Virus record (IMG/VR): IMGVR_UViG_3300037808_000267
Span: 1-30,090 of that record
Direction: 5' to 3' (one strand)
DNA: 30,090 nt
Source of the DNA: a virus
The notes beneath the pieces are model-generated. The model was not told the DNA's origin, did no database searches, and saw only the letters and a list, made by a program, of their open reading frames with translations. The number at the start of each line of letters is the position of its first letter. Positions within the stretch are counted from its first letter, which is position 1. Position numbers and translations under genes: made by a program. Below are positions 739 to 28,484 of this stretch, one piece after another.

Positions 739-3552
739 ATGGAAGAAAGACATGCAGAAGTCCCTACAGTTAACATTATCATGTCTTACGACTACATGGA
801 TCTTTTGGAGTTTCAAAAGTCTATGACGCTTACTGATTTTAAAACTGGGTTAGGTAGTAAGAAGACAGGTACTCAACAAACTTATATTTTCAGTAATAGT
901 CCCGCTTCTAATTTTATATCACTAAAGCATAAATTTGGATTTTCTCAAGGAGGGAAGCAAGCCGCTGCTCCTGAATTAGAAATTGATTTTATTGATCCAG
1001 AAGGGACCTTTGAGACATCGTGGTTTAAGATAGGCGATCAAGATTTGATTTCTCTTGACGATGATCCTTTAGGCTCACGGTTAGAGCGTAAAAAGAAAGA
1101 GTTGCAGGGATTTGTAACCTTACTTCATAAGATAGAATCAGGAGAGATGGACGAAGCTATTGATAGAGAGAATGATGGTTCTATAAAAGTTCTGGGGATG
1201 AAATTTAATGATGGTGCTACTGAAAACAATCTTGAAGATCATATAGACACATTAAAAGACGAAGTAGAAGTGATGGAGGACGCAAAGAAAGATGCTGCGT
1301 TGGGTAAGAGCAACTTTATTGGCTGGCGAGATAGTAATGATGATGGAGGATATGCAGAGAAAAACCTTGAATTAATTCAAAAACAAATTGATGCTAACTC
1401 TAGCCAACTTCAACGCCCTGTGTGGATAACTTATGGAATAGGAGAGAACTTACTAGACTGGACTCCCGTAATGTGTTTTGATCGCTGTATAAATATGGAA
1501 TACAGCTTTACGGGAGGAGGCGCACGAAGTTTAAAGTTAGTCTATTCTGGGGTAGGCATCCATCCCAATTTAACACAAATGGGTCTTGGACCTCTTAAGG
1601 GCTTTCAACTTGGGATGGTTTTTACTGGAGAATCTAATCCTATGTTTAATAAAAAGGCTTTTGAAGTCGAGAAGAAATTTTATGAGCCCTTACTTAAAGA
1701 GGTAGGATCAGACTACGAACCAGACCTTTGGCGACCCAGCATCCACAAGATTATTAGAGATACTATTCGAAGGTATATTAAAGGAGCCATTGGAAAGAAT
1801 ACAAATGTATTATGTATTTTACCTGATCTTGATAAGTATCTTGCTGGGGAATATAAGAAAAGATTAAAAGAAGTAAGGGCTTCAATGGAGGGTATGCTTC
1901 AAGGAGCTAAAGAAGATAATATGGAAATGATAACCTCACATATTCAGGCTACAAAAGAAGTAATAGAAAGCTGTGGATTAAATTTTGTAGAAGAGTTGAA
2001 CACGGAGATTCAGGTGGCTGTTGGAGCTAATGTATGGGATAGAATTGAAAATATTGAAGATCCTGCGAAGGTAATGGATTGGCTACAAAGCAAAGACCTT
2101 ACTGCTATTATTTCTGGTGATGGAGTAGAGGAAACTATTCAAGAAAAAATCAAGAATGTTATGGAGAAGATTAAGGAGTGCGTTGATGACGAAGGGGCTA
2201 TCCCAGGCTTCGATCCGTATTGGTATGTAGAATGTGATTTCAACATGTTACAGGTGATGTATAAGCATTTTGGTGGGAGGGATATTAAGGCAGGGAAGGT
2301 GCCCGCGCCTGAGTGGATGTATGAGACTAATAGTGTAGGCGAAGCAATGAAGCCCGTAGTTGTGGTGGGGGATAAAAATACCATTATGAGTTATCTCCAA
2401 GCTAGGATCTTTGATCAACAACAATTAGACGAAGAAGGCAATGTTATGAGTTTTGCCAATACAAAAGAGCAGCAGCTTGCACTAGAAGAGTCCATCACAG
2501 AGCAAATTAATCCTTATGACAAAGCAGACGGGCTTACTTATAAATTTTTAAAAGAGATTTATGATGTTAATATACCCATTCCGTGGATTTCTCCGTTTGG
2601 TGGAAGCACAGGTGGCGATTCTGAAGATCTGTACTTGCCGGGGGATACAAATATTCCTAAGGGAGACTTAGACCAGATTAGAAAAGAACAACCTTTGACC
2701 GCTCTTCGAATGCCCGTCTTTGCCTTGGGTACAAAGAACCCTAATGTTTTAAGCTTAGATATTGATATTAATAAACAATATTATAATCTTATGAATAACT
2801 TCGGGATGCAACCTAGAAGTGCCCAACAGTATACTACTTCTATTATGGGAAAGGGGAGTGAAAAGAGTGAAGAAGTAACTAAGATTTTTAATGCAATTGC
2901 TGAATTAAATCTTAATGTTTTAGATAAGAACGGTGTTCCCGTGGGATTTGAAGCTATTGTTTCTCCTTATTGGGATCAAAACATGCAGATATGGGGGACT
3001 ACTGATGCATTTAAAGCAGCGGGGGAGATTGATGATTTAGGAGGAGTAGAAACACTATTCACTCATTTTGGTACTGATAACGATATGCCTGAGCTTGTAG
3101 ACCCAGACGGAAAAGATTTCGATAGTAAAGCAGACATGGTTAAGTTTATGTGGAAAGCCTTCTCTGCTATTGGAGAGACCCATGACATTAAACCTAAAGC
3201 CAAAAAACAAACTAGTGGCAAGGGAGTGAGTGGTGGGAAGAATGCCATAATGACTGCTGCTAAGATGGGAGCTAAGTTAACCAATCAAGCATTATTAGGT
3301 ACTATTACTACGATTCCCATGTTTCATCTTTCTAACGACAGACGAGTAATAAACAGAAAAGCTCTATTATATTGTGTAGAACCTAGGTTTGCAGCCGGGA
3401 ACTCTCTTTTTGAGGAGGGAACTGACAATCTAAAAACAAACTTAACTTGGTTTAGTGGAACTTATATTATGACAGGCTTTGAACATACCATTAGTAAGGG
3501 GGCAGTACAATCCTCTTTTGCTATTAACAGACCTACGGGGGGACGAGAATGA
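739..3552 (+). CDS. Large baseplate hub protein, gp27-like (enlarged)
   Basis: A 937-aa protein placed between gp53-like and gp5-like genes, where a central hub is expected. Two hub-type beta segments are visible near the N-terminus: about residues 58-96 (L-K-H-K-F-G-F, then EIDFIDPEGTFETSWF) and about 227-273 (PVWITYGIGENLLDW, then S-L-K-L-V-Y-S-G). They are split by a charged, helix-rich stretch (about 110-222) that looks like a coiled-coil insertion. The C-terminus ends with the hub/VgrG-type strand pair YIMTGFEHTISKGAVQSSF followed by I-N-R-P. T4 gp27 is about 391 aa, so this protein is more than twice as long; the middle (about 300-870) is not recognised. No signal peptide or membrane segment is seen. 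The hub role rests on context and these motifs; a hub fused to another baseplate domain is possible. Confidence 0.6.
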   Translation: MEERHAEVPTVNIIMSYDYMDLLEFQKSMTLTDFKTGLGSKKTGTQQTYIFSNSPASNFISLKHKFGFSQGGKQAAAPELEIDFIDPEGTFETSWFKIGDQDLISLDDDPLGSRLERKKKELQGFVTLLHKIESGEMDEAIDRENDGSIKVLGMKFNDGATENNLEDHIDTLKDEVEVMEDAKKDAALGKSNFIGWRDSNDDGGYAEKNLELIQKQIDANSSQLQRPVWITYGIGENLLDWTPVMCFDRCINMEYSFTGGGARSLKLVYSGVGIHPNLTQMGLGPLKGFQLGMVFTGESNPMFNKKAFEVEKKFYEPLLKEVGSDYEPDLWRPSIHKIIRDTIRRYIKGAIGKNTNVLCILPDLDKYLAGEYKKRLKEVRASMEGMLQGAKEDNMEMITSHIQATKEVIESCGLNFVEELNTEIQVAVGANVWDRIENIEDPAKVMDWLQSKDLTAIISGDGVEETIQEKIKNVMEKIKECVDDEGAIPGFDPYWYVECDFNMLQVMYKHFGGRDIKAGKVPAPEWMYETNSVGEAMKPVVVVGDKNTIMSYLQARIFDQQQLDEEGNVMSFANTKEQQLALEESITEQINPYDKADGLTYKFLKEIYDVNIPIPWISPFGGSTGGDSEDLYLPGDTNIPKGDLDQIRKEQPLTALRMPVFALGTKNPNVLSLDIDINKQYYNLMNNFGMQPRSAQQYTTSIMGKGSEKSEEVTKIFNAIAELNLNVLDKNGVPVGFEAIVSPYWDQNMQIWGTTDAFKAAGEIDDLGGVETLFTHFGTDNDMPELVDPDGKDFDSKADMVKFMWKAFSAIGETHDIKPKAKKQTSGKGVSGGKNAIMTAAKMGAKLTNQALLGTITTIPMFHLSNDRRVINRKALLYCVEPRFAAGNSLFEEGTDNLKTNLTWFSGTYIMTGFEHTISKGAVQSSFAINRPTGGRE

Positions 3553-4802
3553 TCTCTAACCCATTAAAAATTGGAACAGTAATCTCTAATGACGATATTA
3601 GTCGTTCGGGACAGTTTAAAGTATCCTTTGATACGCAGACAGGAAAGAACCCTAAGGGAGAGTGGGTGAGATATGTAACTCCTTTTGGTAATAATAAGGC
3701 TGCTTTTGTAGCTATCCCGCTGCCGGGAAGCGTTGTAGTTTGTGCAAAAATGGATGTTCCTGGTAGGTCAGGGGACATCTCTAAGGGCTGGTTTTACATG
3801 GGCTCTGTTATGGGAGTAATTCCCGGCTTAAATAATAAAATTGATTTTGAGCCTGATGTTCCTCCCGTAGATGCTGATATGGGGATGACAGGTGATGAAT
3901 ATGTTGAAAAGGAAACTCCAGGAACGCATGGAATGAGAAAGGGGGATCGGGCTGCGGTAATTAGCAAAAAAGAACGAAGTCCTTGGCCTCTTAGATTTAG
4001 AGATATGTATGATGGTAAGGCGTTAGTACCTGAAAAGATTGGACTACACGGCTTGCGAGAAGATACTTTAATGATTACCAACCGCTACCGAGGTAATAAG
4101 GCAAACGACCCCTTCCAGCAGCATGAAACGGTTCTTAGAAGCGGATCAGGTAAGAAATTAGCCTTAGTAGACAGCCCTATTGTTGATGGGTTAGTTTACT
4201 CTAACGAGCATAAGGGGAAAAACTTCTTTATCTGGAGTACAGGTAATAGTAAGATGAGCCCTTTCGCCGCAGGAGAAGTACACCTAAGAACACACGGTCC
4301 TATTAATACTTATACTCTAGAGTCCAATATCCATACTTGGGTTGAAGAGGGTAGGAATATTGAAACAGAGAACAGGGCAACGGGTTCCTTTGCCCCAGCA
4401 GCTACGGTAAACTCTGGAGGGCTTACCCCCACCGCAGATCCTAGACATACCATCACTACTTCTAGTGGAGGGTACAAAGCAGAGAGAAAGGGGAATTGGG
4501 GGAACGAAGATTGGGGGTGTGTTAAAACTTGGTCACACCATAACAATGTTTCTGTAAGTGCTATGGCTCCCGACTCCGTGATCCACTTTCACACTACTGG
4601 AGCGGAAAGTAAGGTTATCATTGATTGTGCGGGAACGGTAGATATTATAGCAGCTAAAAAGCTTACTATACAAAGTGATGAGGAAGTAGAAATTAACGCT
4701 CCTATAGTAGATATTAATGGATCGAATACGGTCTTTATAGATGGGGGTCCAAATATTCAATTAAATATGCCCCATGAAACAGGAGGAGCATATATTCCAT
4801 AG
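3549..4802 (+). CDS. 5: Baseplate central spike, gp5/VgrG-like, no visible lysozyme domain
   Basis: A 417-aa protein with the spike architecture. Residues 1-90 form an OB-fold-like N-terminus (LKIGTVISNDD, then V-R-Y-V-T-P-F-G and AFVAIPLPGSVVVCA). A mid-region reads E-T-V-L-R-S-G-S-G-K-K-L-A-L-V-D-S. The end (about residues 355-407) has short beta repeats of the VgrG/gp5 beta-helix type (VDIIAAKKLTIQSDEEVEIN, then APIVDINGS). In T4 the gp5 trimer pierces the outer membrane. T4 gp5 is 575 aa with a lysozyme domain between OB-fold and helix; here the middle has no recognisable lysozyme motif and the whole protein is shorter. The ATGA overlap with the hub gene indicates coupling. A PAAR-like tip is encoded about 21 kb downstream. 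Confidence 0.78.
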   Translation: MISNPLKIGTVISNDDISRSGQFKVSFDTQTGKNPKGEWVRYVTPFGNNKAAFVAIPLPGSVVVCAKMDVPGRSGDISKGWFYMGSVMGVIPGLNNKIDFEPDVPPVDADMGMTGDEYVEKETPGTHGMRKGDRAAVISKKERSPWPLRFRDMYDGKALVPEKIGLHGLREDTLMITNRYRGNKANDPFQQHETVLRSGSGKKLALVDSPIVDGLVYSNEHKGKNFFIWSTGNSKMSPFAAGEVHLRTHGPINTYTLESNIHTWVEEGRNIETENRATGSFAPAATVNSGGLTPTADPRHTITTSSGGYKAERKGNWGNEDWGCVKTWSHHNNVSVSAMAPDSVIHFHTTGAESKVIIDCAGTVDIIAAKKLTIQSDEEVEINAPIVDINGSNTVFIDGGPNIQLNMPHETGGAYIP

Positions 4803-7800: not shown

Positions 7801-7888
7801 GAAGCTATATAAGAGAGCCCTCACCGCTGCTGAAATTAGTAAAAACTATGAAGCTCAACGAGGTTTTTTCGAGAATATTAAAATCTAA
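4811..7888 (+). CDS. Virion protein with C-terminal concanavalin/LamG-like lectin domain
   Basis: A 1025-aa protein of unknown function. The N-terminal 200 residues look mostly helical. From roughly residue 690 to the end the sequence fits a concanavalin-A-like jelly roll: a strand with T-F-Q-T-W-M-H-V-P-D, later V-T-V-T-I-D-Y and EVAFWLNGQLM (the classic 'v.lyvnG' strand), and a closing GSVKLYKRALTAAEISKNYE, the standard LamG ending. Such domains bind glycans in many phage and bacterial surface proteins. It sits between the spike gene and the gp25 gene, so it is probably a virion protein. Binding of a host polysaccharide is inferred; no catalytic glycosidase residues could be identified. It ends one base into the next start codon (TAATG). 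Confidence 0.6.
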   Translation: MASWDFSKAAGIITTSPTPILDALSVQYGVPQCMLDMAKDILAAFPSPVLNSIQAGIQNGKDKADEMMKDIMRRIFLDSGIVEYDTDLGRFVFVSSSSNLGVEQDMLQGLNNLYGLGTILGFGAQAWVIGETALSQINQIKSCIDKWKTFETLQKGPSAIADKIAGFQALDPITGEVLTEYFAPPPAAEAASLVFDQTKATLEAAVGFANKADEQIQNIREITQARAKDPENNPEPAFWGGMVNTTPNSPWEGQTLTEALSGATTFNILEGLDVDANGNPILPPSALGEIFDPFTDVLTSSDVGPPVSVRGQYLQSQTGMYYNAYGGGINIPQVSSLDAYGNVVWKDGCITGIINAIYWDEAGDPIAGTGVPPEGLRWLLEQNPNIGGKGKAVTWATFNTWADTVFDIKHIDESPLMQGFYEQDHFLQVILDQRNRNIYDLSSYITNLKVEGYGEDSAQVVNQRQILYSKIADHDSKINRRKKQIEVHVILAPEDRPAVAGAIPINNLEDLDGAKLAIQKALQERIMFNPGEVSGAVLPLCPTFIKSAIPQDTFTVEELMVPPIGVGGIITSDPQASGTSGTYLALNDQITTKSLVAIYNFLDADIVLPDSNNYFTVNCATSSTSAAPAQIVASSIASMFPSGVGIPYFRGMCNTFSGVNGSTKASRYPNNLEYLYNAYRPLGYALLKQGEPDIDNFLYASGGATFQTWMHVPDLDQENGEGWAADKSVSALHRVVLGCENRGGSFSSADPLLAQGPQYGNTVRGLLMGFTRDRRLTQGTAPSNNPSENTLAQGLQFYMSPTQSINTSCVSFLAASANVAYCPQDEVPPSGYHGLYIDTSTTVGGIKFGDVSSNFMQVTVTIDYANKEVAFWLNGQLMTTSSTSYVFGVEGPPNIPSMVDSSSFSYSSLYDGKLAYNPPLYPPHSVGQTSFWYWGGPTPKGNGGVLMTPWIIGGGYTDGMSAKALPQYVAGSNDGSNFMGGKWGGKKSGLYGHLGSVKLYKRALTAAEISKNYEAQRGFFENIKI

Positions 7889-15599: not shown

Positions 15600-16332
15600 A
15601 GGACATATCACAATTTGTAAGGTGTACAGCGATGGCACCCAAGAAACAGTAGTAGACAGAGGTAATTTGATTACTGCTGGGCTAGGGTCCTCCCTTATCG
15701 ACATACAGATGGGGGGCGGCTCAGATTATGTTGATGGGTATGGGCCTTACTACTTCCAAGTAGGAACCGATACGATAGACTATGCTACTAAGTTTGAGGC
15801 AGCTACTTCTGCTTGTTTTTATACACTATCCTCCCCGTTTGGTTGGGCAGATTATGGTGATAATACGGATTATGAGGTTACTAAACGGTATAGAGGCTTC
15901 TATGCATCTAGTGAGGGGGGAGAATATAAGGAAATGTTTGGGACTACTGCGCCCCTCTCATCCGTTATATTCTCAGGATCAGATGAGTATTTTGCTAAAG
16001 TAACTGAGGGGAGAATTACTAAAGTTTTTATGGACTCCTTTGAGTCTGAGATAATTCTTGATGAAAATACAGGTAATGGTAAGCTAATTTCCGAGGTGGG
16101 ATTGTTTGCTAAAAACCCCAAAGGGCTTAAAGAGGATACCCCCATTTTGATGGCTTATAGAAGTTTTGCAGGGGTTCCAAAAACTAAAGAATATTCTTTA
16201 GTTATCCATTGGTCTATAGGATTCTTAGGACTTTCAAGAAACATTGATGACCATTACTCAGGAGGGGTATATATTCCTGTAGATACTCTAGCCTATGACC
16301 AAACATCCTCCAAACCCTCCTACCTATTATAA
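15592..16332 (+). CDS. Structural protein, second of three tandem paralogues
   Basis: A 246-aa protein. The N-terminus has HITICKVYSDGTQETVVDRG and then N-L-I-T-A-G-L-G. The C-terminal region has L-I-S-E-V-G-L-F-A-K-N-P-K-G, then A-Y-R-S-F, K-T-K-E-Y-S-L-V-I-H-W-S-I-G-F. These blocks align residue by residue with the third paralogue, so the two arose by duplication. The 'E-x-G-L-F ... aYr.F ... Kt..fsl...W.i.f' ending is a pattern I associate with virion proteins of large tailed phages, with no settled role that I know. A tail of about 25 residues after the shared end is unique to this copy. The start overlaps the previous stop by 8 bases. Confidence 0.55.
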   Translation: MIKGHITICKVYSDGTQETVVDRGNLITAGLGSSLIDIQMGGGSDYVDGYGPYYFQVGTDTIDYATKFEAATSACFYTLSSPFGWADYGDNTDYEVTKRYRGFYASSEGGEYKEMFGTTAPLSSVIFSGSDEYFAKVTEGRITKVFMDSFESEIILDENTGNGKLISEVGLFAKNPKGLKEDTPILMAYRSFAGVPKTKEYSLVIHWSIGFLGLSRNIDDHYSGGVYIPVDTLAYDQTSSKPSYLL

Positions 16333-16341
16333 GGTATAGCT

Positions 16342-16971
16342 ATGAAAAAAGAAGATTACTTAGACGCATCAGGACACTTAGAGATTTGGAAGGTATACCC
16401 AGACGGCTCTGAGGAAAATGTTTTTGATGATAAGAATACGATTACTTCGGGGATGGGAGTAGGGTTAGGTCTTTTATATGCAGGGTCAGGAGCTACAGAT
16501 ATAACTAATTTCCAAATTAGATATTTTCAATTAGGTACTAAAGGTGATACCATTATCAATACTTATGGGGTATCTGAATCTGCACTCGTCTCAGCCTTAG
16601 GACAGGATAATGGTATCGCAGATTATCATACTAATGCAGAGTCGTTTCTGCCTATTGACATTCATGAAGAAATGGCTTGGAATGGAGAAGCTAGACCTGT
16701 ACAAACAACAGGGGATGATAGTAACAATTACCTCTTCCCTGTAATATCAGATAATAGTATCAAAAGGGTTGATCTTAATTCTGTAACCTATATACTTTAC
16801 ATAGACCAGAGTACCTGTAATGGTAATACTCTAAACGAGGTGGGGTTATTTATGAAAAACCCCCTAGGGTATGATCCAGAGAGGTCTCCTCTTGTGGCAT
16901 ATAGACCCTTCACAAATATTGAAAAGACTAATGATTTTTCATTAGTCTTTAAATGGACATTGAATTTCTAA
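16342..16971 (+). CDS. Structural protein, third of three tandem paralogues
   Basis: A 209-aa protein, the shortest copy and probably closest to the basic domain. The N-terminus has S-G-H-L-E-I-W-K-V-Y-P-D-G-S-E-E-N-V and then N-T-I-T-S-G-M-G-V-G-L. The C-terminus has L-N-E-V-G-L-F-M-K-N-P-L-G, A-Y-R-P-F, K-T-N-D-F-S-L-V-F-K-W-T-L-N-F. It is separated from the second copy by 9 bases containing an AAGGT-type ribosome site and from the beta-helix gene by 1 base. Function unknown; three variants of one fold next to the fibre genes suggest an adaptor or collar series. Confidence 0.55.
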   Translation: MKKEDYLDASGHLEIWKVYPDGSEENVFDDKNTITSGMGVGLGLLYAGSGATDITNFQIRYFQLGTKGDTIINTYGVSESALVSALGQDNGIADYHTNAESFLPIDIHEEMAWNGEARPVQTTGDDSNNYLFPVISDNSIKRVDLNSVTYILYIDQSTCNGNTLNEVGLFMKNPLGYDPERSPLVAYRPFTNIEKTNDFSLVFKWTLNF

Positions 16972-16972
16972 C

Positions 16973-19900
16973 ATGGCATTTCAACCAACAGACTTATATC
17001 TACCTTCGGGCACAGGCACTCTGATTAATAATTGGGTTGATCCTGTTTATAAATTCGATTCAAGCTCTTTCTATAACTGGGAGCAGGATAACCTACCAAT
17101 CTATGATCTAGAGGATCGTGATGATTACTTGTATGAGATGGCTGGCTACCCAACTTCTGCTGTTGATGGGATCATGCTAACTGTATCAGCTTGTGGAATT
17201 GATAACAAGAAGGTCTTCGGTACAGTATCTGATGCTTTAGAAGCACTTCCTAATACCATCAGGTTCCCTATTATTATTGAGGTGTGTACTAGCGGTCAGC
17301 TAGGAGGAATCCATGTAGAGAATAAGGAGTTTGAAGGCTCTAGTGCTGGTCTGGAAATTATCAACAGAGGGTTTGCTAAATCTTTATGTGGATCAAGCCT
17401 TACCCCTTCGTCATTTATTACTACTGTAGATGCTAATTCAAGTGCTATTACTCAATTTGAGTCTGAGGATCTGAGTAATACTATGCTAGAGTCCTCTTCC
17501 TTAGGAGTGAGGGATACAGTATGGCAAAAGAATGCTCTGGGAGCTTACTCTTGGTGGGGAAACTTTACTAGAACTTTTGTTCTAGCTCCCGAATGGGCTA
17601 AGGCGGCTGCTACTAGTAATAAGACCATCACTATTTCTACTAAGTTTACCGATACAACAGGGGACCTCTTTGACGCAGTTGCCAACAAGTTTAATGTAGG
17701 AAACTATAGGGATAACTCTACTGCCACAGAAACACTGATTCTTAACCCTAGAACTTCAGTCCTTGTACAAAGAAGTGCCTATGCTACCCCAACCAATACC
17801 TCACGGGCTGTGGGGCTGGTATACGCAAACTCCGCTAGTGGAGTGACAGTTAAGGATTGCGCTGGTAAGGTGTATATTAGAGGCTTCTGCGTAGATGGAG
17901 GCTCTCAAGCTTCTCTGAATAGTGGAGGTGAACAGAGGACTAATATTGGTTTTGATATTGAAAATTCAGAGGTGTTAATAGAAAACTGTACTGCCACTAG
18001 ATGTAAGGATGCTGGGTTACAAGCGGTTAACTCTCATGTAACTTTAAATAGAGGCTTTATAGCTTTTAGAAATTACGAGCTTGAGACTGTGGGGCCGCAC
18101 TTAGATACTAAGGTTACAACAAATCCGACTCCTGGACTAAGAGCAATAACCTCTACTATTACTCTAAATGCGGCGACAGAAGATGCATTAGGTCTTCCCC
18201 TAGACTCTCCTTTCTGTTTCTATAAGAATATGGTTGGAATGGATCTACAAAACTCTGTTGTACAGACTCCTGCTGATTTTAGATATGGAAAAGATGCAAA
18301 TGGAGAAAGTAATAATAATATCGAGGGAAGCCAAAGTTTAGTTCTTCAAACTTTCTTTAATATTAATGAAGGTATTAAAGCTGTAAACTCAACAATTAAT
18401 ACAGGTCAGGTTATCGCCTCCTTCCAAAATGATAAGGGGATTGTATTAGAAAATTCGGTTGTGAAAGCAGCTATCATTACGGCTGATCATAATAGGTATG
18501 AGGGGTTAAAGGCTGTTAATTCTGTTTTGAATTATAACCAATACGCTGAACTCATGTGGCCAACTGGACCGTTCTACCCTAATACTAATTTTGATAACAA
18601 CGGACAGCATATTGTTTTATCTAACTCTGAGGTTATCCCTACTATGGATAGTGAAATAGATGCAAAGTGTACAAGATTTGGATTAAGCGGTACACACGGT
18701 ATGGAGGAGTTTGGGGGAGGTGAGTATACCTCTCTTCCTGCCGTAGTAATTACTGATGGTTCTCATATGAAAGCCTTATTTACACGGGCCGAAGTACACC
18801 AGTCTACCGAAGATGGACCTGCATATTCGATTGTTAACGCAGTAAAGGGTAGTATATTCCAAGTTACTAAGGGAAGTAATTTGGAATTAAACGGTACTTC
18901 TAACAACTCTACTATGATCTTAGGACCTTACTCATCCGATAAACAGCAAAAAACTGCGGCTCTTTATGCAGGAGATAATTCTCATATTAGCATAACAGGC
19001 CCCACTAGCATTGTTCAATTCGGAATTGATGCCTTAGCAGAAAATCACTCTACTATTGAGATCGGTCCTCCTATGAAAGACGGAGTACTAGATATTCGTA
19101 ATTTTAGTTTGGGCACCACGAACAACCACACCAAAGTTCAATTACATGCTACTAGAGCTTGTTTAGTAGCTAATAAAAATTCTCATATTTATATGCACGA
19201 TGCTGGGGATTACCACAGGTTTTGGGCTTCTAAACATCTTGCAGATACTGAAGACTATGATACCGATGTTTTAAATACTTCAAGCTATACTTCTCATGGA
19301 TACATTCAATTTTATCCAAACCCCTTTGCTCCTTATGGAACAGAAGTAACTCAGTTAGACTTACAAGGACAAGCGAGATGGTGCGCTGATAATAATAAAG
19401 TTGGTCTGAATAATACTACCCAGAAAGCTTACGAAGAGCTTCCTCAACAAGATGTAGCAGTAGGTGATGCTGTGTCAAGTCTTTCCTATGGTGGAATGTG
19501 TGTAAGAGCAGTTGGAGGAAGTGAAGTTACCGCAAGGAATGTAACCTTCCCTACAGGCTGGGCAAACCCTTCTGGTCCTTATTATGATGCTTCTACTATT
19601 GGAAACTGTGACCTGTTAAGGATTTGGAATATTGCAGATAACTCAGAGCTACATGCTTCCTACTTAACAGTTTCCTCTTATTTCCCAGAAGACGCTAGTG
19701 GAATCTATTATGGTCCTAGTGCTGTGTGGACATCTTCATTAAATACTGGTTTGTCTGGCGCACCTTCTTCTACAGCGGATACAAGTGGCTTAAGTGTTCT
19801 AGATTCCTTTGGGTTGGGAGTTAACACGGGTGGGGACCTTGGCTACTATGGAAAACCTCTACAGCAAAACATCGGACCCTTTAGAATTTATGTTTCTCCC

Positions 19901-20428
19901 CATCCTAAAGCGAAGTGGTTAGGATATCCTCATACGATTGCAGGGGAGGGTTATATGCCTCCACAACCCCCTGTTGCATTTGTAAGTATGGGCTTTAACT
20001 TCCCAAACACGGCAACACTAAAAACAGGGGCACCTTATCAGCTTTACGCACAAGGTTATTCAACTTCCTCTGATTGTAGTTCTTTAGATCCTACTACTGC
20101 TAGTGACATTTACCAAGACTTAGGTATGAGTGGTCATATTATTACTCTTCCCTCCTCGATGCAGGTTGAAAATGTAGCATCTTCCTTCTTTTACACTTCA
20201 GCTATGCTGTCTTGTGATAATGAGACTAGGATTTGGTTAGATAAGTCTGCTATGAACACTTTTGCAAACGCTAAGAATGGCACTTTAGGAACCTCAGGAA
20301 GAAAGAAAATCTTTAGTTATTATAAAGCCATAATGGAATATCCAGGAGAGGGTTGGTGGCAAGCTACCGCAGGATTTGGTGTAGGGTTAGGATCCGCAAA
20401 CCTCTTTGATTTAGATAGAGACTTATAA
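16973..20428 (+). CDS. Tail fibre/spike-like protein with right-handed beta-helix
   Basis: An 1151-aa adhesin-type virion protein. Residues 31-53 hold a motif shared with the next gene (F-Y-N-W-E-Q-D-N-L-P-I-Y-D-L-E), probably the part that attaches to the virion. From about residue 300 onward it shows beta-helix rungs: G-F-D-I-E-N-S, G-L-Q-A-V-N-S, G-M-D-L-Q-N-S, G-I-K-A-V-N-S, G-I-V-L-E-N-S and G-L-K-A-V-N-S, at glycine positions 326, 348, 422, 467, 489 and 511, i.e. steps of 22. Further S-H-[IM] turns continue to about residue 750. Phage beta-helix proteins of this type commonly bind or cut host polysaccharide; no catalytic site could be assigned. The C-terminal 350 residues are not recognised. 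Confidence 0.62.
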   Translation: MAFQPTDLYLPSGTGTLINNWVDPVYKFDSSSFYNWEQDNLPIYDLEDRDDYLYEMAGYPTSAVDGIMLTVSACGIDNKKVFGTVSDALEALPNTIRFPIIIEVCTSGQLGGIHVENKEFEGSSAGLEIINRGFAKSLCGSSLTPSSFITTVDANSSAITQFESEDLSNTMLESSSLGVRDTVWQKNALGAYSWWGNFTRTFVLAPEWAKAAATSNKTITISTKFTDTTGDLFDAVANKFNVGNYRDNSTATETLILNPRTSVLVQRSAYATPTNTSRAVGLVYANSASGVTVKDCAGKVYIRGFCVDGGSQASLNSGGEQRTNIGFDIENSEVLIENCTATRCKDAGLQAVNSHVTLNRGFIAFRNYELETVGPHLDTKVTTNPTPGLRAITSTITLNAATEDALGLPLDSPFCFYKNMVGMDLQNSVVQTPADFRYGKDANGESNNNIEGSQSLVLQTFFNINEGIKAVNSTINTGQVIASFQNDKGIVLENSVVKAAIITADHNRYEGLKAVNSVLNYNQYAELMWPTGPFYPNTNFDNNGQHIVLSNSEVIPTMDSEIDAKCTRFGLSGTHGMEEFGGGEYTSLPAVVITDGSHMKALFTRAEVHQSTEDGPAYSIVNAVKGSIFQVTKGSNLELNGTSNNSTMILGPYSSDKQQKTAALYAGDNSHISITGPTSIVQFGIDALAENHSTIEIGPPMKDGVLDIRNFSLGTTNNHTKVQLHATRACLVANKNSHIYMHDAGDYHRFWASKHLADTEDYDTDVLNTSSYTSHGYIQFYPNPFAPYGTEVTQLDLQGQARWCADNNKVGLNNTTQKAYEELPQQDVAVGDAVSSLSYGGMCVRAVGGSEVTARNVTFPTGWANPSGPYYDASTIGNCDLLRIWNIADNSELHASYLTVSSYFPEDASGIYYGPSAVWTSSLNTGLSGAPSSTADTSGLSVLDSFGLGVNTGGDLGYYGKPLQQNIGPFRIYVSPHPKAKWLGYPHTIAGEGYMPPQPPVAFVSMGFNFPNTATLKTGAPYQLYAQGYSTSSDCSSLDPTTASDIYQDLGMSGHIITLPSSMQVENVASSFFYTSAMLSCDNETRIWLDKSAMNTFANAKNGTLGTSGRKKIFSYYKAIMEYPGEGWWQATAGFGVGLGSANLFDLDRDL
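17948..18568 (+). repeat. 22-residue beta-helix rung repeats inside the fibre protein
   Basis: In-frame protein-level repeats with consensus G-[hydrophobic]-x-[hydrophobic]-x-N-S-x-[V/I/L]. Glycines begin at nucleotides 17948, 18014, 18236, 18371, 18437 and 18503. Spacings of exactly 66 bases occur between 17948 and 18014, 18371 and 18437, and 18437 and 18503. The DNA itself is only partly conserved, so the repeats are old and selected at protein level, as expected for stacked beta-helix rungs with an asparagine ladder. Confidence 0.65.
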
Positions 20429-20429
20429 T

Positions 20430-23135
20430 ATGGCATACAAATTTCATCAACCTATTAGATACTATAAGGCAAACGATCCTTATTATTATGAAGTAGACAA
20501 CCTTCCAGTTCGTCAGCTTGAAGAGAATATTCTCTTTATTAAAAATAAATTAGAAGGACCAAAAGGCGGTAGTGGAGGTGGCTACCTTACTGAGACTAGT
20601 GAGCTTAGTATTTATAATATTAAGGAGTTACGCCCAAAATCGTCTGGAGGGCGTACTATTAATGTAAATGCAGGTAGGTTTAATTCTAGAATTAATGATG
20701 CTTATAATATAGGCGATACTTTAGCTTCTCTAGTATATGATTCCGTTGGTCCCGGAGGAAGCGAACCTGTTTTAATTCCTGCTTTACGAAATATGTGGAC
20801 GGAGGTACAACGAGATGCCGTATGGAACTCTTTTATTATTAGTGGAGAAAAGCCTTATAATGTTAATGGATTAGAAATTGCTTTTACTTTTTATTCTAGC
20901 CCTGGAGGTGAAGGGGGTAATTGGGGATGGAATACAACTAGTGAGAGAGGTGCTAATTATCCTAAGTATAACATGTCAAGCCAGAGTCATCGCTGGCCTG
21001 GAATGAGTAACTTTGGTCCCCTTGTTGCATCACAACTAGGACCAGTAATTGAATATAATAACCAATACACTTATGAGAACTTACCTTCTATTCATCTAGC
21101 GTTTGTTAAGAAGTGGAGAGGTGTCTTTAGAACTTCTGTTGTAGATTTTCCTGAACAGACTATAGAGATCCCAGCTTTTGATGAGTGGGACTACTACTAT
21201 AGAAGTACGGGAGAAGTAGATGTTGTTATTCCTAATGCAACTCAACGCATTGATTTATTGGTAGCTTATAGTGTTCCCATTGACGCTAGTTCAACTACTA
21301 GACCCAGTTACGAGGAAACATTCTGTCAAATAGGCGGCACCCCAAAACCTAAGCTTGAAACTAAGCCTATGCTTGGTCTTGTAAGAGGTGCAGGAGTGGG
21401 TATTCAAAAAAATAATACTAATGTAGTCCCAAGTATCTCTACAAAAGAGGGGTGTCCTCCAGATAAAGGTACACCAGGATCAGCTAGAATTGCTGGTAAT
21501 ATAAATGATACACAAGCTACGGCAAACCTGGGGATTACAGACTCTGCTGGAAATGTTATTCACGGTAGTTTCCCCTCTCCTGACGATCTTCTAAATATAG
21601 CACCCCTATTAGCTATAGATGTTGATGATGATGATTTACAACTAGTGGGACAAGCTGCTCTTCCTATTGCTTATATTGTAGTTAAACAAGGTCAAGCTAA
21701 TATTACACAAGCTGATATTATTGATATCAGACCCTTCCTTCGTACTACGGAATTTACCTATAATGAACGGGCTGGCGTAGCAGGAGCTAATCCCCCTCTA
21801 TCCCTTGCTAATCCTGCGGTGGGATTATTCCAATTACAAGATGTAACTAAGAAAATTTATACTAGTTTGTATGGATCTATAATCCCCACTTCTGAAATAA
21901 AAGATGGTAAGATTCTTTATACTGATTATGTGATGGGGGGTTTGGCTTATGGTCCTGAAGGAACTCTTTTGAGTATGAACGCTAACTCGTCTCACACTCA
22001 AGATCCTTGGGGAACAACTACACAAAATGCAGGTTTAACTTATGGAGATACTACTTATACCTTCTCTCAGTATACTTCTAATAAAGCCTTTCTAGAAGAA
22101 GCTACTATTACAAATAAAGAAGCTCTACTCCAGTACTTCTATAATAATCGTCAAGCTGATCTAAAAGTATGGCTATCTGATCCTAATTCTTCCTTTAATG
22201 TGGCTAATGGAACCTACTTAGGTCTCCCAGGAGGTACGGAGGGAAGAAATATTCCTCTTTACCCAGAGTGGGATCAACCTTATAACTCTTTAAACCAAGC
22301 CTCAGTTATGACTGGCGCACAGAAATCTGCTAAGGCTACTTGGTGGATGTTTATTGAAGGTTGGAGCGCAGCACGGCAGATTTCCTATCTTCCTGGGGGA
22401 GTGGCCTCTATCAGAGGAACGAAGGACCAATCCGCTAACTGGTTAGATGTAGATTTTAATCCAAGTTGGGGAAGCACAAAATTCCAAGCAATGATTGTTA
22501 CCAATACTAAGCGTATTGAAATTATACTCCCAGACTGGGCGCAAGATTATGATGTTCTAGTAGAATATGTGAATTGTGGACCTCTCACTTCTACCTCTGA
22601 TCCCACAGCGGGTGGCTCGTCAGCAGGTACTAATAAAGGCTTAGGTTCTGGATTATATGTAAACAAAGGTCCTGTTGTTAGTACCCCACAGAAATCCGCA
22701 GTATTTTATATCAACTCTGCTTCTCAGCCCATTCCAGAGAGTAATGGAGGCATATGTGATGGTCGAGTAACAGATGAAGAAGCCAGTAACGGAAATAACT
22801 GTGATGGAACTAGAAAATCTCCTCCTGGTCCTAACGCTGCTTATGATTGGTTGAGCTATCAAGTTTGCTTACCACAGTTTACATCTACAGCATGGGGAAT
22901 GAATCAACAAGGGGATACTTTTAATAACACCACAAGATTTGCCCCTAAGTTTGGGATGTGTTTTTATCCTACTGTTAAGTTTTCAGTAGTTGCTTATAAG
23001 GAGCTTGTTCTTAATAGAAATAGTAATTTGGGAGCCGCAAACAATTATACTTTGATTGAGACAGCAGGTAACTCTGGAGATATCTTATCACCAACTGCTC
23101 CTCTTTATACAGGGACAGTTGTTGATCTATCGTAA
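20430..23135 (+). CDS. Second tail fibre-like virion protein
   Basis: A 901-aa protein one base after the beta-helix gene. Residues 17-35 (P-Y-Y-Y-E-V-D-N-L-P-V-R-Q-L-E-E-N) match the N-terminal motif of the upstream fibre, pointing to the same docking site on the virion. A short Gly-rich linker follows (G-P-K-G-G-S-G-G-G). Residues about 410-445 (L-P-I-A-Y-I-V-V-K-Q-G, I-T-Q-A-D-I-I-D-I-R-P-F) resemble a segment seen in fibre proteins of T4-like phages. The rest is Gly-, Asn- and Tyr-rich with aromatic patches, suggesting an extended beta structure. No enzyme motif is seen. It may be a longer fibre partner or an alternative receptor binder to the upstream gene. Confidence 0.55.
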   Translation: MAYKFHQPIRYYKANDPYYYEVDNLPVRQLEENILFIKNKLEGPKGGSGGGYLTETSELSIYNIKELRPKSSGGRTINVNAGRFNSRINDAYNIGDTLASLVYDSVGPGGSEPVLIPALRNMWTEVQRDAVWNSFIISGEKPYNVNGLEIAFTFYSSPGGEGGNWGWNTTSERGANYPKYNMSSQSHRWPGMSNFGPLVASQLGPVIEYNNQYTYENLPSIHLAFVKKWRGVFRTSVVDFPEQTIEIPAFDEWDYYYRSTGEVDVVIPNATQRIDLLVAYSVPIDASSTTRPSYEETFCQIGGTPKPKLETKPMLGLVRGAGVGIQKNNTNVVPSISTKEGCPPDKGTPGSARIAGNINDTQATANLGITDSAGNVIHGSFPSPDDLLNIAPLLAIDVDDDDLQLVGQAALPIAYIVVKQGQANITQADIIDIRPFLRTTEFTYNERAGVAGANPPLSLANPAVGLFQLQDVTKKIYTSLYGSIIPTSEIKDGKILYTDYVMGGLAYGPEGTLLSMNANSSHTQDPWGTTTQNAGLTYGDTTYTFSQYTSNKAFLEEATITNKEALLQYFYNNRQADLKVWLSDPNSSFNVANGTYLGLPGGTEGRNIPLYPEWDQPYNSLNQASVMTGAQKSAKATWWMFIEGWSAARQISYLPGGVASIRGTKDQSANWLDVDFNPSWGSTKFQAMIVTNTKRIEIILPDWAQDYDVLVEYVNCGPLTSTSDPTAGGSSAGTNKGLGSGLYVNKGPVVSTPQKSAVFYINSASQPIPESNGGICDGRVTDEEASNGNNCDGTRKSPPGPNAAYDWLSYQVCLPQFTSTAWGMNQQGDTFNNTTRFAPKFGMCFYPTVKFSVVAYKELVLNRNSNLGAANNYTLIETAGNSGDILSPTAPLYTGTVVDLS

Positions 23136-23156: not shown

Positions 23157-25991
23157 ATGGTTTTTAAGCATGAATGTTGTTATGAAAACCTTATTTATAA
23201 TCCAGGACCTACTGGAAACCGTGGGGATCCTGAAGTTGCTTCGGATTGCGCTGTAGTACCCCAGCAACCCGGCCCTACTGGGCCTACTGGGCCTGGAGGG
23301 TATCATGGAGGGGGTATTATTGGACCTACTGGTGTAGATGATCCCGAAGGACCAAGACCTGGACCTTTTGGAGTCCCCCCAGGACCAAGGGGGCCAACGC
23401 CAAATCCAACAGGGCCTACTGGGCCTACTGGGCCTACTGGGCCAACAACCCCACCCCCAGGAGGTCCAGGTGCGCCTACTGGAGTAGGTCCAACTTCTCC
23501 TGCGGGAAGTACTTGTCGCTGTGTAAGTACTGGAGGCCCCTTTTCTAATCCTAGTCAACCCCCTATTATTAGGGATGACGGGTGTACAGTTTCTACTTAC
23601 TTTTTTACTTACGAGTGTAGATCTTCAATGGGACCAACGCCTACTGATCCTTTAGATACTTTTGTTAATGGGGAGAAGGCTAAGGGGAATGATGTTCAGG
23701 TTAGACCAGGATCAACGACCAGTCCTTGTAAAGGTAGTGTTGGTTGTAGTGGGGAATGTCCTGATACATATGTAATTGTTACCGTTTGTCCTGCGGGACC
23801 TGTTACTAGCGTTGAGAGAACTAATATAGATGTTGCTCTGGCTCTTGAGGTCAAAGATGGTCCTACCACTACTGGAGGATCTGACTCGATTTATGAACTT
23901 CCGGGAAATACTCCTGTTGGTTGGTCAACTATATCCTCAAATTCAGGGGACACAGATACAAAGGGTCCTTCTAATATTCCTTCTTATCCTGTTAGCAAAA
24001 AGACTGGATCCGTTATTTTAAATAAATCTTTAAATGTTCCTATTGGTCCTACTATAGCAGATGCTTTTGATACAGCCGAAAACGAATCAAGAAATACTGC
24101 TCCTCTTAATGACCTCCTTCCTTTTGATCCTTCGATGGAAATTTTTGATAGAGATTATAATTATTTAATCCCTGATGACCCTGATACTCTTAGTCGTGCT
24201 ACCAATATAATTAATAGAAATAATACTGATAATAATATTATGGGTACTTTTGTTCCTAACTTTGTTAATGATGTATTACTTGCGGGATTAGGGGCAGAGG
24301 TTCCTTTTGATGGAACAACTATAGGAGCTTATTTATTTTCTAATCTCACTGCAAAAATGCTTAGTGAAGCTACCAAAGAAAGCTTAGCAAAATTAGAGAC
24401 TGCTAATATATCCTCTCTAGCCCTTAGTACTTATTTAAAAACTGCAATTACTCTAGCTGTTTCTCAAGGAAATGTGAATGATTACTCTCAAAGCTTATTT
24501 ACAGAAATGTTCCAAGGGGCTAAGAATTCTTTCCCACAGGGGTTTCCAAAGATAGAACTTTCGGGAAGTAGGCGCAACGCTTTTGGATTAGTGAGAGACA
24601 AGAAGCAAAGTTTAGACAATAAAGCTTATAAAGCAAAAGGAACCCAGCAACGCATGGTTCAGATGTACAGGATCGTAGCTCCTGATATTGATCTAAGTCT
24701 TCCCGTAAGAACCTTTTTTGGTAAGGTTACTAGTGCAGCAATTGGGTCGAATAATAAACTTAAGGTTACAAGGGCAAACGGAAAAGTTGAACATGTATCT
24801 GAGACAAATGATTTCATTAAAGTAAGAACTGTAAAGGGAAAGCAGGAAACCATTGAATTAAAATCTAATAGAAATATTGCATATAATTTTGATACTCCAG
24901 ACCTGTCTGTAATTTATGCACACTTCGCTAAACAAAACAGCACTCAATATGGGTTTAATCTATCTGTAAGCTCTAAGTATGAGGATGAGGTAGAGCAGGG
25001 AAATATAGATAGGGAGGGGTCCCTTATTAATAAAGGGTATCTGTTTACCATAAATGCAGATAGCCTTGAAGATGTGCCTAATACTGACCCTTATACCAAA
25101 CAAACTAAAGTTGAGTATACAAGGGCATGGAAGGATGGGGATTCTGCTTTAAATTTCAACAATATAGTTGGGGCACACTCTGGGCCTAGAAATACAGTAT
25201 ACATTCCCGTGGATGATCCTTGGTGGGGGCATTTCCTTAACCAAGATGAGTTGGGAAGATATGTAGTAAATGCTACCTTTACGGACTTAGATCTAGATGG
25301 TTTTGATGGAAAGGTTTACCCCCGTAGGATACCTAATGATTTATTAATTGTTCCAAGCAATGTAACTGCCTATAATGTATTACAGGGGGGTTCAGTGTTG
25401 GAACAGTATGAGGTTGATAAACCAGTTATACGATCTGCCTCTATTATAATGAATCCTTTACCTTCTATTTTTAATAAAGACTATGTACAAACTACGAAAG
25501 CCGCTAATGGACTTAACCAGGACGGAAGACCTGATATTTTTGCCTTTACCTTCCAGCAGCATAAGAATAATAAGGATGATTTCACCCCAGCACTAGACGC
25601 TTTAGTAGGTCCAACAACTATTTATAAATCAAAGCCCTCTCCTTTAGGTGAAGTATTAAATAAGATTGAAGATATTAAAACTTCCTATGATCTTACTAGG
25701 GGAAGGTTAGGAAAGGGGCTCCCTCAAGGGGACTTACTGACTAGATTTACTATGCCACAGCTTATTAACTACATAGCGAGAACTCCTGCTAATGTTAGAG
25801 CAAGGGTGTTAGATGGAAAGTATAATAATATTAAGATTTTCTCTGTTAAGAAGACAGATAGGGAAAAAACTTTTTTTACTGCTGCTAGACTGAAGCAAGG
25901 AGGAACTCCACAAATACCTAAAAAGATTCCACAGGTAACAGGAAATTACTATCCCCCCTCTGACAAAGGTAAAATTGGAGGGTTTTTGTAA
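23157..25991 (+). CDS. Cysteine-rich virion protein with collagen-like Gly-Pro-Thr stalk
   Basis: A 944-aa protein. Between residues 17 and 117 are collagen-type triplets, including GPTGPTGPTGPT near 86-97 and further G-P-R, G-P-T and G-A-P units, interrupted by short insertions. Cysteines are concentrated in the first 211 residues (7, 8, 31, 120, 122, 143, 154, 191, 197, 201, 211) and could form disulfides or bind metal. The remaining 700 residues, with a beta-rich region around 520-780, are not recognised. Collagen-like stretches in phages usually form trimeric stalks of fibres. Start choice: AAGAGG lies 7 bases before the ATG. It ends with a TAATG overlap into the PAAR-like gene, so the two products may belong together. 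Function unknown beyond a probable fibre or spike-associated role. Confidence 0.6.
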   Translation: MVFKHECCYENLIYNPGPTGNRGDPEVASDCAVVPQQPGPTGPTGPGGYHGGGIIGPTGVDDPEGPRPGPFGVPPGPRGPTPNPTGPTGPTGPTGPTTPPPGGPGAPTGVGPTSPAGSTCRCVSTGGPFSNPSQPPIIRDDGCTVSTYFFTYECRSSMGPTPTDPLDTFVNGEKAKGNDVQVRPGSTTSPCKGSVGCSGECPDTYVIVTVCPAGPVTSVERTNIDVALALEVKDGPTTTGGSDSIYELPGNTPVGWSTISSNSGDTDTKGPSNIPSYPVSKKTGSVILNKSLNVPIGPTIADAFDTAENESRNTAPLNDLLPFDPSMEIFDRDYNYLIPDDPDTLSRATNIINRNNTDNNIMGTFVPNFVNDVLLAGLGAEVPFDGTTIGAYLFSNLTAKMLSEATKESLAKLETANISSLALSTYLKTAITLAVSQGNVNDYSQSLFTEMFQGAKNSFPQGFPKIELSGSRRNAFGLVRDKKQSLDNKAYKAKGTQQRMVQMYRIVAPDIDLSLPVRTFFGKVTSAAIGSNNKLKVTRANGKVEHVSETNDFIKVRTVKGKQETIELKSNRNIAYNFDTPDLSVIYAHFAKQNSTQYGFNLSVSSKYEDEVEQGNIDREGSLINKGYLFTINADSLEDVPNTDPYTKQTKVEYTRAWKDGDSALNFNNIVGAHSGPRNTVYIPVDDPWWGHFLNQDELGRYVVNATFTDLDLDGFDGKVYPRRIPNDLLIVPSNVTAYNVLQGGSVLEQYEVDKPVIRSASIIMNPLPSIFNKDYVQTTKAANGLNQDGRPDIFAFTFQQHKNNKDDFTPALDALVGPTTIYKSKPSPLGEVLNKIEDIKTSYDLTRGRLGKGLPQGDLLTRFTMPQLINYIARTPANVRARVLDGKYNNIKIFSVKKTDREKTFFTAARLKQGGTPQIPKKIPQVTGNYYPPSDKGKIGGFL
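23271..23444 (+). repeat. 9-bp tandem repeat coding for collagen triplets
   Basis: The unit GGGCCTACT, coding G-P-T, occurs in two clusters: once plus a variant copy around 23271-23288, and three perfect copies at 23412-23438 followed by a partial unit. The identical third codon positions indicate recent copy-number change by slippage or recombination rather than old protein repeats. Confidence 0.75.
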
Positions 25992-26341
25992 TGGCAGCAC
26001 TAGCTAGATCGGATGGAATAGATACTGTTGATTCTATTGATGGGATTAGTACAGCCCTCAAGCCCTGTTGCGCGGATAAAAGCCAGCAGTTCACGGATGA
26101 GGGATCTTTAAATGTTTTTGTTAATGGAGCAGGGGTGGTGCGCGAGGGAGATGCGATGATCATACACCCCTTTCCTTTTCCCCCCTGCTGTGGCGAACAT
26201 GCTCCGACATTAAACACTTTTTCCCCAAGTGTGCTTGCTAATGGGCTTTCAATGGGGAGAAAAGGTGATGACTATGGAAACCCTGTTCCAGAACATATCA
26301 TTTCTAGCGGTTCTTCTAATGTTTTTGCTAATGGAGCTTAA
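25991..26341 (+). CDS. PAAR-like spike-tip protein
   Basis: A 116-aa protein with two halves of the PAAR pattern. The first has N-V-F-V-N-G-A-G-V-V-R-E-G-D-A-M, then H59, C66, C67 and H70 (P-P-C-C-G-E-H-A-P). The second has V-L-A-N-G-L-S-M-G-R-K-G-D-D-Y-G, then H102 and S-G-S-S-N-V-F-A-N-G. PAAR proteins form a metal-stabilised cone on the tip of gp5/VgrG spikes; T4 gp5.4 is the phage example. The His and Cys residues are candidates for the metal site. It is tied to the collagen-like gene by a TAATG overlap and lies far from the spike gene at 3549-4802. It is the last gene before the late promoter region. Confidence 0.8.
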   Translation: MAALARSDGIDTVDSIDGISTALKPCCADKSQQFTDEGSLNVFVNGAGVVREGDAMIIHPFPFPPCCGEHAPTLNTFSPSVLANGLSMGRKGDDYGNPVPEHIISSGSSNVFANGA

Positions 26342-26441: not shown

Positions 26442-27005
26442 ATGTCAGAACATTTAAAAGTTGAAGAGAGCTTTGTAAAGACTCTACTCGAAAACGCTGC
26501 GTGGGACGCAGCAAAGATCGAGCTTGTAGAGAAGAAAGCCGTAAAGGAAAAGAAGGTTAAGGAGCAGGATGACGAAGAAGAAGAGGTTCCCGCAGAGGAA
26601 GCTAAGAAGGTCAAGGAAGCTTCTAAGAAGGTTAAGGAGCAGGATGATGAGGAATATGATGATGAGATGAAGGAAAGCGTTGAGGTGCATACTTGTCCTC
26701 TATGCGAGTCCACTCTTGAGGAGGAGCTTAGTGATGAGCAAATCCGAGAGCATGTCGCTCAGATCCAAGCTGCTATGCAATCTATTGATGAGTTTAATGG
26801 CGATGATGAGGATGATGCCGTTGACTCACATGATGACCCAGAAGCTGATGCTGCTGCTTCGGAAGAAGATCCTGACGCTGAGGCAGATGCTAAAGCCGAT
26901 ATGGATATCAACGCATCCAAGAAGAGCAAAAAGAAGAAGAAGTCTAAAAAAGAGTCCGTTATGAAGAAGGTTAAGGAGCTTAAGAAGGCTTCCAAAGGTA
27001 AATGA
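26442..27005 (+). CDS. Highly charged prohead core-type protein with CPLC motif
   Basis: A 187-aa protein of mixed acidic blocks (for example residues 43-48 and 119-150) and lysine blocks (31-40, 160-187). Charge alternation and position at the start of the head module resemble T4 gp67-type prohead core proteins, which fill the prohead and are degraded by gp21. A K-K-V-K-E-Q-D-D-E-E block occurs twice, 25 residues apart, and K-K-V-K-E recurs near 57 and 175. A single C-P-L-C pair (85, 88) with H83 and H104 nearby could bind metal, which is unusual for a core protein. The start has AAGGAA 7 bases upstream. Assignment rests on composition and neighbours, not on detailed similarity. Confidence 0.5.
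   Translation: MSEHLKVEESFVKTLLENAAWDAAKIELVEKKAVKEKKVKEQDDEEEEVPAEEAKKVKEASKKVKEQDDEEYDDEMKESVEVHTCPLCESTLEEELSDEQIREHVAQIQAAMQSIDEFNGDDEDDAVDSHDDPEADAAASEEDPDAEADAKADMDINASKKSKKKKKSKKESVMKKVKELKKASKGK
26550..26647 (+). repeat. 23-bp direct repeat in the core protein gene
   Basis: A 23-base sequence beginning AAGAAGGTTAAGGAGCAGGA occurs at 26550-26572 and again, identical, at 26625-26647, exactly 75 bases (25 codons) apart. The first 16 bases recur at 26964-26979. This points to internal duplication of the charged segment. Confidence 0.8.
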
Positions 27006-27478: not shown

Positions 27479-27879
27479 CTTTGTTTGATATCTTAACAGA
27501 GCGGGGTAAGCCCAAAACTGACGCAGCTAAAGACAAAAAAGGGGCCGTAAAATCTAGAAAAGCTAGGGTAAGAGTTTACGCTACTATAGCTAAAGCACTA
27601 GAGCAGGGATATGCGGGACAGATTTTTAGTACTAAGGGGGCTGATAGGCTCTATGTTATTTCCAAATCAGGATGGGGAGAAAAAAGTAAGGGTAAGATTG
27701 CTAAGGGGTTTACTCCTGGTAGCGCAACCCCCTCCGCAGATTTTAAGAGTGTTAAAGCTCACTCTATGAGAACCGCTCTTAAGCACGGTACTACCTCTTC
27801 TAAGAGAATTAAAGATAAGTATGGCCCAGGTGCGAAAAATAAGATTAAGAATTCTAAGAAAGCCGTAGGGGGCAAATAA
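27475..27879 (+). CDS. Very basic small protein in prohead module
   Basis: A 134-aa, lysine-rich protein. The middle has a compact globular-looking stretch (Y-A-T-I-A-K-A-L-E-Q-G-Y-A-G-Q-I-F, then G-A-D-R-L-Y-V-I-S-K-S-G-W-G), with basic tails on both sides (N-terminal K-K-G-A-V-K-S-R-K-A-R and C-terminal K-N-K-I-K-N-S-K-K). Such a protein could balance acidic core proteins or touch DNA, but that is a guess. It occupies the place of T4 gp68, just before the protease, and is joined to both neighbours by overlaps (ATGA, TAATG), so joint expression with the core is likely. I do not recognise the family. Confidence 0.5.
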   Translation: MTLFDILTERGKPKTDAAKDKKGAVKSRKARVRVYATIAKALEQGYAGQIFSTKGADRLYVISKSGWGEKSKGKIAKGFTPGSATPSADFKSVKAHSMRTALKHGTTSSKRIKDKYGPGAKNKIKNSKKAVGGK

Positions 27880-28484
27880 TGTTTATAACTGATACCTTTA
27901 TTATTGAAGACATGCAAGTGTTAGAGGAGTCCAAAGCTAATGGAACCATGAAGATTGCAGGGGTATTCCAGAGGGCAGGAACCCCTAATCAAAATAAGAG
28001 AATTTATGAAAAGAAACTCTTAGTTAGAGAAATGACCCGATTAGACGAAGCTATTCAAGAGCGACGATTAATGGGAGAATTAGATCACCCTACACATGAT
28101 GCAGTAAAGCTAGGAAATGTTTCTCATTTAGTAACTAAATTACATATGAAGGGGGATGATATGCTTGGTGAAGCAGAGATCCTTAATACTCCTTGTGGGC
28201 AGGTAGCCCAAGCTTTAATTAAAGGTGGGGTAAAGTTAGGAATTTCTTCAAGGGGAATGGGTTCCCTTACGGAGAAAGGGGATTATTCAGTAGTTAATGA
28301 TGATTTTAAACTAGTAACCTTTGATTTAGTAGCTGATCCATCAACTAAAGGAGCGTTTCCTGGCTTGGTAAATGAGAGTAAAGACTCTAAGTTTATCGAA
28401 GATACGGTTAAAGCTACATATGATAAGGCTTTATCAGAGAAGATTTTTATTCAAAAGCTATTTAATCAACTACGCAAAAAATAA
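27879..28484 (+). CDS. 21: Prohead maturation protease, gp21-like
   Basis: A 201-aa protein with the T4 gp21 protease signature. The catalytic His lies in G-E-L-D-H-P (H70) and the Ser in G-I-S-S-R-G-M-G-S (S123 or S124). An N-terminal G-V-F-Q-R-A-G-T-P-N-Q-N-K-R-I-Y block and a later D-L-V-A-D-P-S block complete the herpesvirus-assemblin-like fold. The enzyme acts inside the prohead, digesting the core and trimming gp23 after (L/I)-x-E. Length is close to T4 gp21 (about 212 aa). It is preceded by core proteins and followed by gp22 and gp23, the T4 order. It starts through a TAATG overlap. Confidence 0.93.
   Translation: MFITDTFIIEDMQVLEESKANGTMKIAGVFQRAGTPNQNKRIYEKKLLVREMTRLDEAIQERRLMGELDHPTHDAVKLGNVSHLVTKLHMKGDDMLGEAEILNTPCGQVAQALIKGGVKLGISSRGMGSLTEKGDYSVVNDDFKLVTFDLVADPSTKGAFPGLVNESKDSKFIEDTVKATYDKALSEKIFIQKLFNQLRKK

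Follow-up and report, generated by a model that had tools for sequence, protein, structure and literature searches.

In phage T4, the PAAR tip protein gp5.4 caps gp5 (PMC7600766), and effectors of T6SS and eCIS are often encoded beside PAAR genes (PMC8651086). Other T4-like phages carry the PAAR gene beside gp5, gp25, and gp6 in the hub cluster. A different arrangement is found in the window described here, a stretch of 30,090 nucleotides from IMG/VR record IMGVR_UViG_3300037808_000267, whose annotated features given below lie on the + strand. It covers the tail-to-head region of a T4-like phage, with gp25, gp6, Tail_P2_I (found within a 1,483-aa protein), and gp21. Between the baseplate genes (gp25, gp6, Tail_P2_I) and the prohead protease lies an ORF with an ATG start (23157..25991), encoding a two-part virion-module protein of 944 aa, termed P944, with homologues in the corresponding position in about 36 lineages. 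It is followed by the gene for a 116-aa PAAR spike-tip protein resembling T4 gp5.4 (25991..26341). Both ORFs are present where the original prediction had placed them. The P944 gene recurs, identical or one SNP apart, in four further IMG/VR assemblies of the same phage and is therefore not an assembly artefact.

The downstream gene, originally described as PAAR-like, is a genuine PAAR gene according to both Pfam and PHROGs. Its product passes the PF05488 cut-off (29.7 bits against 27) and matches phrog_281 with an E-value of 4e-15, and tblastn connects it to phage PAAR genes. A Shine-Dalgarno-like AGAGGT precedes the P944 start, while the PAAR gene has its own Shine-Dalgarno-like GGAGGG (25977..25982) within the 3' end of P944. 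The P944 stop and the PAAR start overlap by one base, TAATG, as had been reported. The accompanying claim that translational coupling is directly seen at this overlap did not hold, since 6 of the 19 gene junctions in the window are of the same kind. One-base overlaps are a local habit of this tightly packed late cluster, so the overlap alone says little about P944 and PAAR, and coupling between them is a plausible interpretation rather than an observation.

PAAR proteins normally pair with a gp5/VgrG spike, and the genetic partner in this window had been described as the collagen-like protein; PAAR is not deprived of its usual partner, for which the same late cluster encodes a candidate. The 417-aa protein at 3549..4802, as indicated by PF04717 and by its relatives, is a putative gp5/VgrG-like spike on which PAAR would be expected to sit, and its OB domain lies at the N-terminus. 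PF04717 (Phage_base_V) is matched by five of the seven members of this protein family, with a best E-value of 8.7e-6; the window protein itself scores 21.2 bits against a cut-off of 23.8, and one relative matches DUF2345. The spike gene is conserved in relatives, and the PAAR gene lies about 21 kb downstream of it in the window. The usual PAAR slot, between the gp5-like spike and gp25, is occupied by P1025 (1,025 aa, 4811-7888), the C-terminal end of which is laminin-G/concanavalin-like at a sub-threshold level (PF13385, E 8e-5). Elsewhere in the window, three successive proteins of 386, 246, and 209 aa (14439-16971) share an N-terminal motif, and the second and third are paralogous over their full length (31% identity, E 3e-32).

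Relatives were collected in IMG/VR with the prohead protease gp21 as the anchor, and their loci are referred to by L numbers. The figure of about 36 lineages is our own count, with near-identical contigs merged by eye; searches of viral contigs with the core alignment added no loci beyond those already known. In these marine contigs, P901 lies upstream of the P944 homologue wherever that side is visible, and PAAR or P187 lies downstream, giving the conserved order P901-P944-[PAAR]-P187-P154-P134-gp21 across the roughly 36 lineages. In the window, synteny delimits this module by P1151, a conserved upstream neighbour (16973..20428), P901, directly upstream of P944 where both are visible (20430..23135), and P187, which follows PAAR as the first gene of the prohead block (26442..27005). 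The anchor is a gp21-like prohead protease (27879..28484; PF03420, E 5.6e-25; phrog_207). A tblastn search with the window protein and three distant members recovered no relatives from the INPHARED isolate phages, and family profile searches of RM378, P-HM1, Mel-JY01, and phiM19 were empty. The relatives are metagenomic contigs with a single exception, a contig within a Prochlorococcus single-cell genome. Judged from these sequences, the P944 family is an unnamed and widespread group of two-part proteins of marine T4-like phages, and the phages that carry it are only distant kin of cultured cyanophages.

The exceptional contig (L079/L110; QCKN01000003.1, 130,604 bp) is a large member of the group within the genome of Prochlorococcus sp. 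AG-409-P03, which is a possible host of that phage and is treated as a lead only. The psbA gene was not found in QCKN01000003.1, and for this reason no host is claimed for the group.

P944 divides into a conserved C-terminal core and a variable N-terminal part. The core (residues 319-944; 24111..25988), of about 626 residues, can be aligned throughout the family, whose members share 15-34% identity with the window protein, and the C-terminal 600 residues of family members usually contain 0-3 cysteines. An AlphaFold2 model based on 34 family sequences confidently predicts a mixed alpha/beta globular monomer (pLDDT 86.3, pTM 0.87); an earlier model from 15 sequences reached a pTM of 0.78. At E<=1e-3, Foldseek returned no match for either model in the PDB and none in BFVD for the earlier model; the two AlphaFold models and three Foldseek searches thus revealed no known tail-protein fold. 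Profile searches of the core against the PDB, PHROGs, and Pfam matched nothing, and no receptor-binding domain was recognised in P944 by profile searches. A weak PDB profile match to PHIKZ129 (E 0.54) was also rejected as homology, with an hhalign probability of 3.5%. Neither the sequence nor the predicted monomer fold of the C-terminal region resembles an ordinary fibre. The most conserved core residues, R759, S746, P677, P925, and D687, form no recognisable catalytic motif, and their conservation suggests, in our judgement, a structural role over a catalytic site.

The N-terminal part (residues 1-318; 23157..24110) is Gly/Pro-rich and is distinguished by its composition and by its below-core identity in close pairs. 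As originally noted, eleven cysteines lie within the first 211 residues, at positions 7, 8, 31, 120, 122, 143, 154, 191, 197, 201, and 211; residues 212-944 contain no cysteine. The last eight form a module (residues 120-211; 23514..23789), and like modules were recognised by eye in L025, L042, L044, L048, and L049. GPT occurs 14 times in P944, mostly within the first 120 residues, and at least 11 copies in that stretch were seen in none of 20,000 composition shuffles. The longest pure GPT tract, and the only one to exceed two triplets, is (Gly-Pro-Thr)x4 at residues 86-97 (23412..23447). The longest unbroken G-X-Y run is five triplets (GPTGPTGPGGYHGGG), a length also attained in 874 of the 20,000 shuffles, and no collagen profile in Pfam matches P944. 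Across 31 relatives, the maximum G-X-Y run spans 1-6 triplets, mostly 2-4, and the majority have N-termini that are Gly-rich or cysteine-rich instead of collagen-like. The term collagen-like GPT stalk consequently overstates this stretch, because the runs do not exceed five triplets, chance reaches five, and the trait is not family-wide. The N-terminal stretch of P944 is better described as a linker rich in Gly and Pro, in which the collagen-like tracts are short.

The N-terminal part varies widely within the family: it has about 40 residues in L079 and about 1,230 in L091, its cysteines number between 0 and 101, and in a few members (L079, L031) the module is almost absent. Every close pair compared shows lower identity in the N-terminal part than in the core, with N-part/core identities of 95/99, 64/81, 43/67, 39/64 (L088-L093), 43/60 (L022-L025), and 48/60%. 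Among the near group, an N-terminal motif of Pro-x-Gly-Asn-like residues followed by a cysteine seems recurrent by eye. Additionally, a profile detected a six-cysteine repeat (C-x3-C-x4-8-C ... C ... C-x3-C) in 13 copies in L091 and 9 copies in L097, in arrays at L091 2327-6000 and L097 1-2600. Among the ORFs of the loci searched, the L091 repeat is confined to P944 homologues, and no Pfam match was obtained for the arrays; the repeat is apparently an undescribed domain. Separately, at L052 4700-4950, an 11-residue Gly-Ala-rich repeat of the N-terminal part differs in make-up from that of L051 and L053, which suggests a change in repeat length; the difference may be partly due to assembly, as two contigs break inside it.

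The survey of related phages shows that PAAR and P944 are not routinely separated, and their pairing is no accident. PAAR lies directly 3' of P944 in 32 of about 36 lineages, of which 31 are supported by profile or an evident motif and one, L083, is marginal (E 0.073); in about 21 lineages the PAAR start and the P944 stop overlap. No PAAR gene follows P944 in L042, L049, L071/L073, or L084, and none was found anywhere in the records of L042, L049, and L073 (PF05488 or phrog_281) or L084 (phrog_281), all of which are fragments; the L049 record covers 28 kb from gp5 to gp21, and that of L073 98.5 kb. The pairing is therefore strongly conserved without being obligatory, and P944 is not strictly PAAR-dependent, since four lineages keep it without an adjacent PAAR gene.

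The PAAR genes also vary among themselves. C-terminal extensions of about 150-220 residues occur at L022 7511-8401, L044 3100-4155, L082 2320-3105, L088 7622-8623, L091 7819-8682, L097 4401-5294, and L099 7787-8692. In one marine phage population represented by four assemblies (L051-L054), the PAAR gene behind the P944 homologue (starting at L051 2360, L052 7101, L053 2318, L054 8196) contains an in-frame TGA. It falls on a conserved cysteine site, GSP*PSHTAP against GSPCPPHTAP, and the remaining frame is open. A bacterial SECIS element was considered and rejected, as Rfam gave no support and the folding was not unusual, and the TGA may be either a nonsense mutation or a recoding signal.

The combination of a conserved core with a fast-changing, module-swapping, cysteine-rich part, encoded in a late tail block, is the reason for reading P944 as an adsorption protein. 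The reading tentatively preferred here, at somewhat less than an even chance, is that P944 is a tail adhesion protein anchored by its conserved C-terminal core, with the variable N-terminal module exposed. Its position among virion genes suggests that the protein is part of the virion. P1151, P901, P944, and PAAR would be expressed from the fixed block, all as late tail proteins; PAAR would cap the gp5-like spike, and the core of about 626 residues would attach P944 to the tail or baseplate. The N-terminal linker and the cysteine modules, presumed to be of disulfide type, would point outward and either contact the host surface or resist the environment. The lower conservation of this part, relative to the core, in each close pair is what a region touching the host would be expected to show. 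In tail fibres, the N-terminus is usually the attached end and the C-terminus the variable one, which counts against the adhesin reading, because an anchoring C-terminus and an exposed N-terminus would reverse the usual fibre polarity. The failure to recognise a receptor-binding domain and the near absence of the N-terminal module from L079 and L031 also speak against it. The orientation, the disulfides, and adhesion itself are accordingly put forward as probable features of a model.

The alternatives differ mainly in where P944 would sit and what PAAR would mean to it. The core might dock at PAAR or at the gp5-PAAR needle, either directly on it or around it, so that the N-terminal module would come to lie centrally in the baseplate. 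The adjacency in 32 of about 36 lineages and the overlapping starts in about 21 speak for this arrangement, as does the location of PAAR beside gp5, gp25, and gp6 in other T4-like phages, which makes its position behind P944 look derived and maintained. However, four lineages, including those with the 98.5-kb and 28-kb records, have P944 with no PAAR found, a candidate gp5-like partner for PAAR is present, and one-base overlaps are frequent in the genome, so that docking at the spike is considered unlikely. A direct P944-PAAR contact is possible. A more specific version, a tail-tip adhesin whose new fold docks at the PAAR-capped spike and whose hypervariable, disulfide-rich N-terminal arrays would recognise the host there or close by, and not at peripheral fibres alone, is doubtful. 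Alternatively, the two genes may be plain neighbours, with P944 acting as an adhesion or decoration protein elsewhere, in the fibre network, the collar, or the head surface, and merely sharing an operon with PAAR. Synteny extends beyond the pair and takes in all genes between P901 and the prohead protease, and P944 is kept where PAAR is missing, both of which fit this explanation; yet the pair is kept despite the strong divergence of PAAR and its acquisition of C-terminal extensions, and no head-specific signature was found. This possibility, too, is given a low probability, similar to that of docking at the spike.

Two further proposals give P944 a different function altogether. By analogy with the PAAR neighbours of T6SS and eCIS (PMC8651086), the core, which is large, globular, and unrecognised, could be a toxin or an enzyme that the spike carries along, in a type VI secretion-like manner. 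But toxin and enzyme families went unmatched in Pfam, PHROGs, and PDB profiles, the five most conserved residues lack a recognisable catalytic motif, and an effector of 600 residues has no evident use for a single-use phage tail, which makes an effector very improbable. Hardly more probable is an assembly factor that folds or installs PAAR or nearby fibres and is absent from the mature virion. The tight pairing of the two genes agrees with such a factor, and the genes of fibre chaperones often neighbour those of their clients, but hypervariable arrays with up to 101 cysteines would be unexpected in it.

The family occurs in dozens of marine phage lineages and in no isolate genome or protein family library searched. 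If P944 is an adhesin, as tentatively preferred, its modular cysteine-rich N-termini would represent a large and as yet unread repertoire by which ocean phages recognise their hosts, and contractile tails would have a new structural component in the conserved core. Furthermore, because PAAR accompanies P944 almost invariably, a specific contact between the two lends itself to testing.

Compared with known systems, the locus combines familiar and divergent features. As with the gp5-gp5.4 spike of T4, the window encodes a PAAR protein and a candidate gp5/VgrG-like OB-domain spike; unlike in T4, PAAR lies about 21 kb away behind P944, a protein for which no T4 counterpart was detected. With tail fibres that have collagen-like or Gly-rich stalks, P944 shares a Gly/Pro-rich, repeat-bearing linker and a place in a late tail block, but it differs in its G-X-Y runs of five triplets or fewer, its predicted globular alpha/beta core, and the N-terminal position of its variable part. 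PAAR-linked effectors of T6SS and eCIS (PMC8651086) offer the parallel of a large unrecognised protein directly beside PAAR, whereas P944 is without a toxin domain, is kept when PAAR is lost, and belongs to a phage late structural module. Far-T4 phages such as RM378 (PMC4360716), in which P944 and PAAR are not detectable, resemble this group as environmental T4-like phages distant from isolates, a likeness judged by gp23 identity: between relative L035 and the nearest cyanophage, gp23 identity is no higher than about 31-33%.
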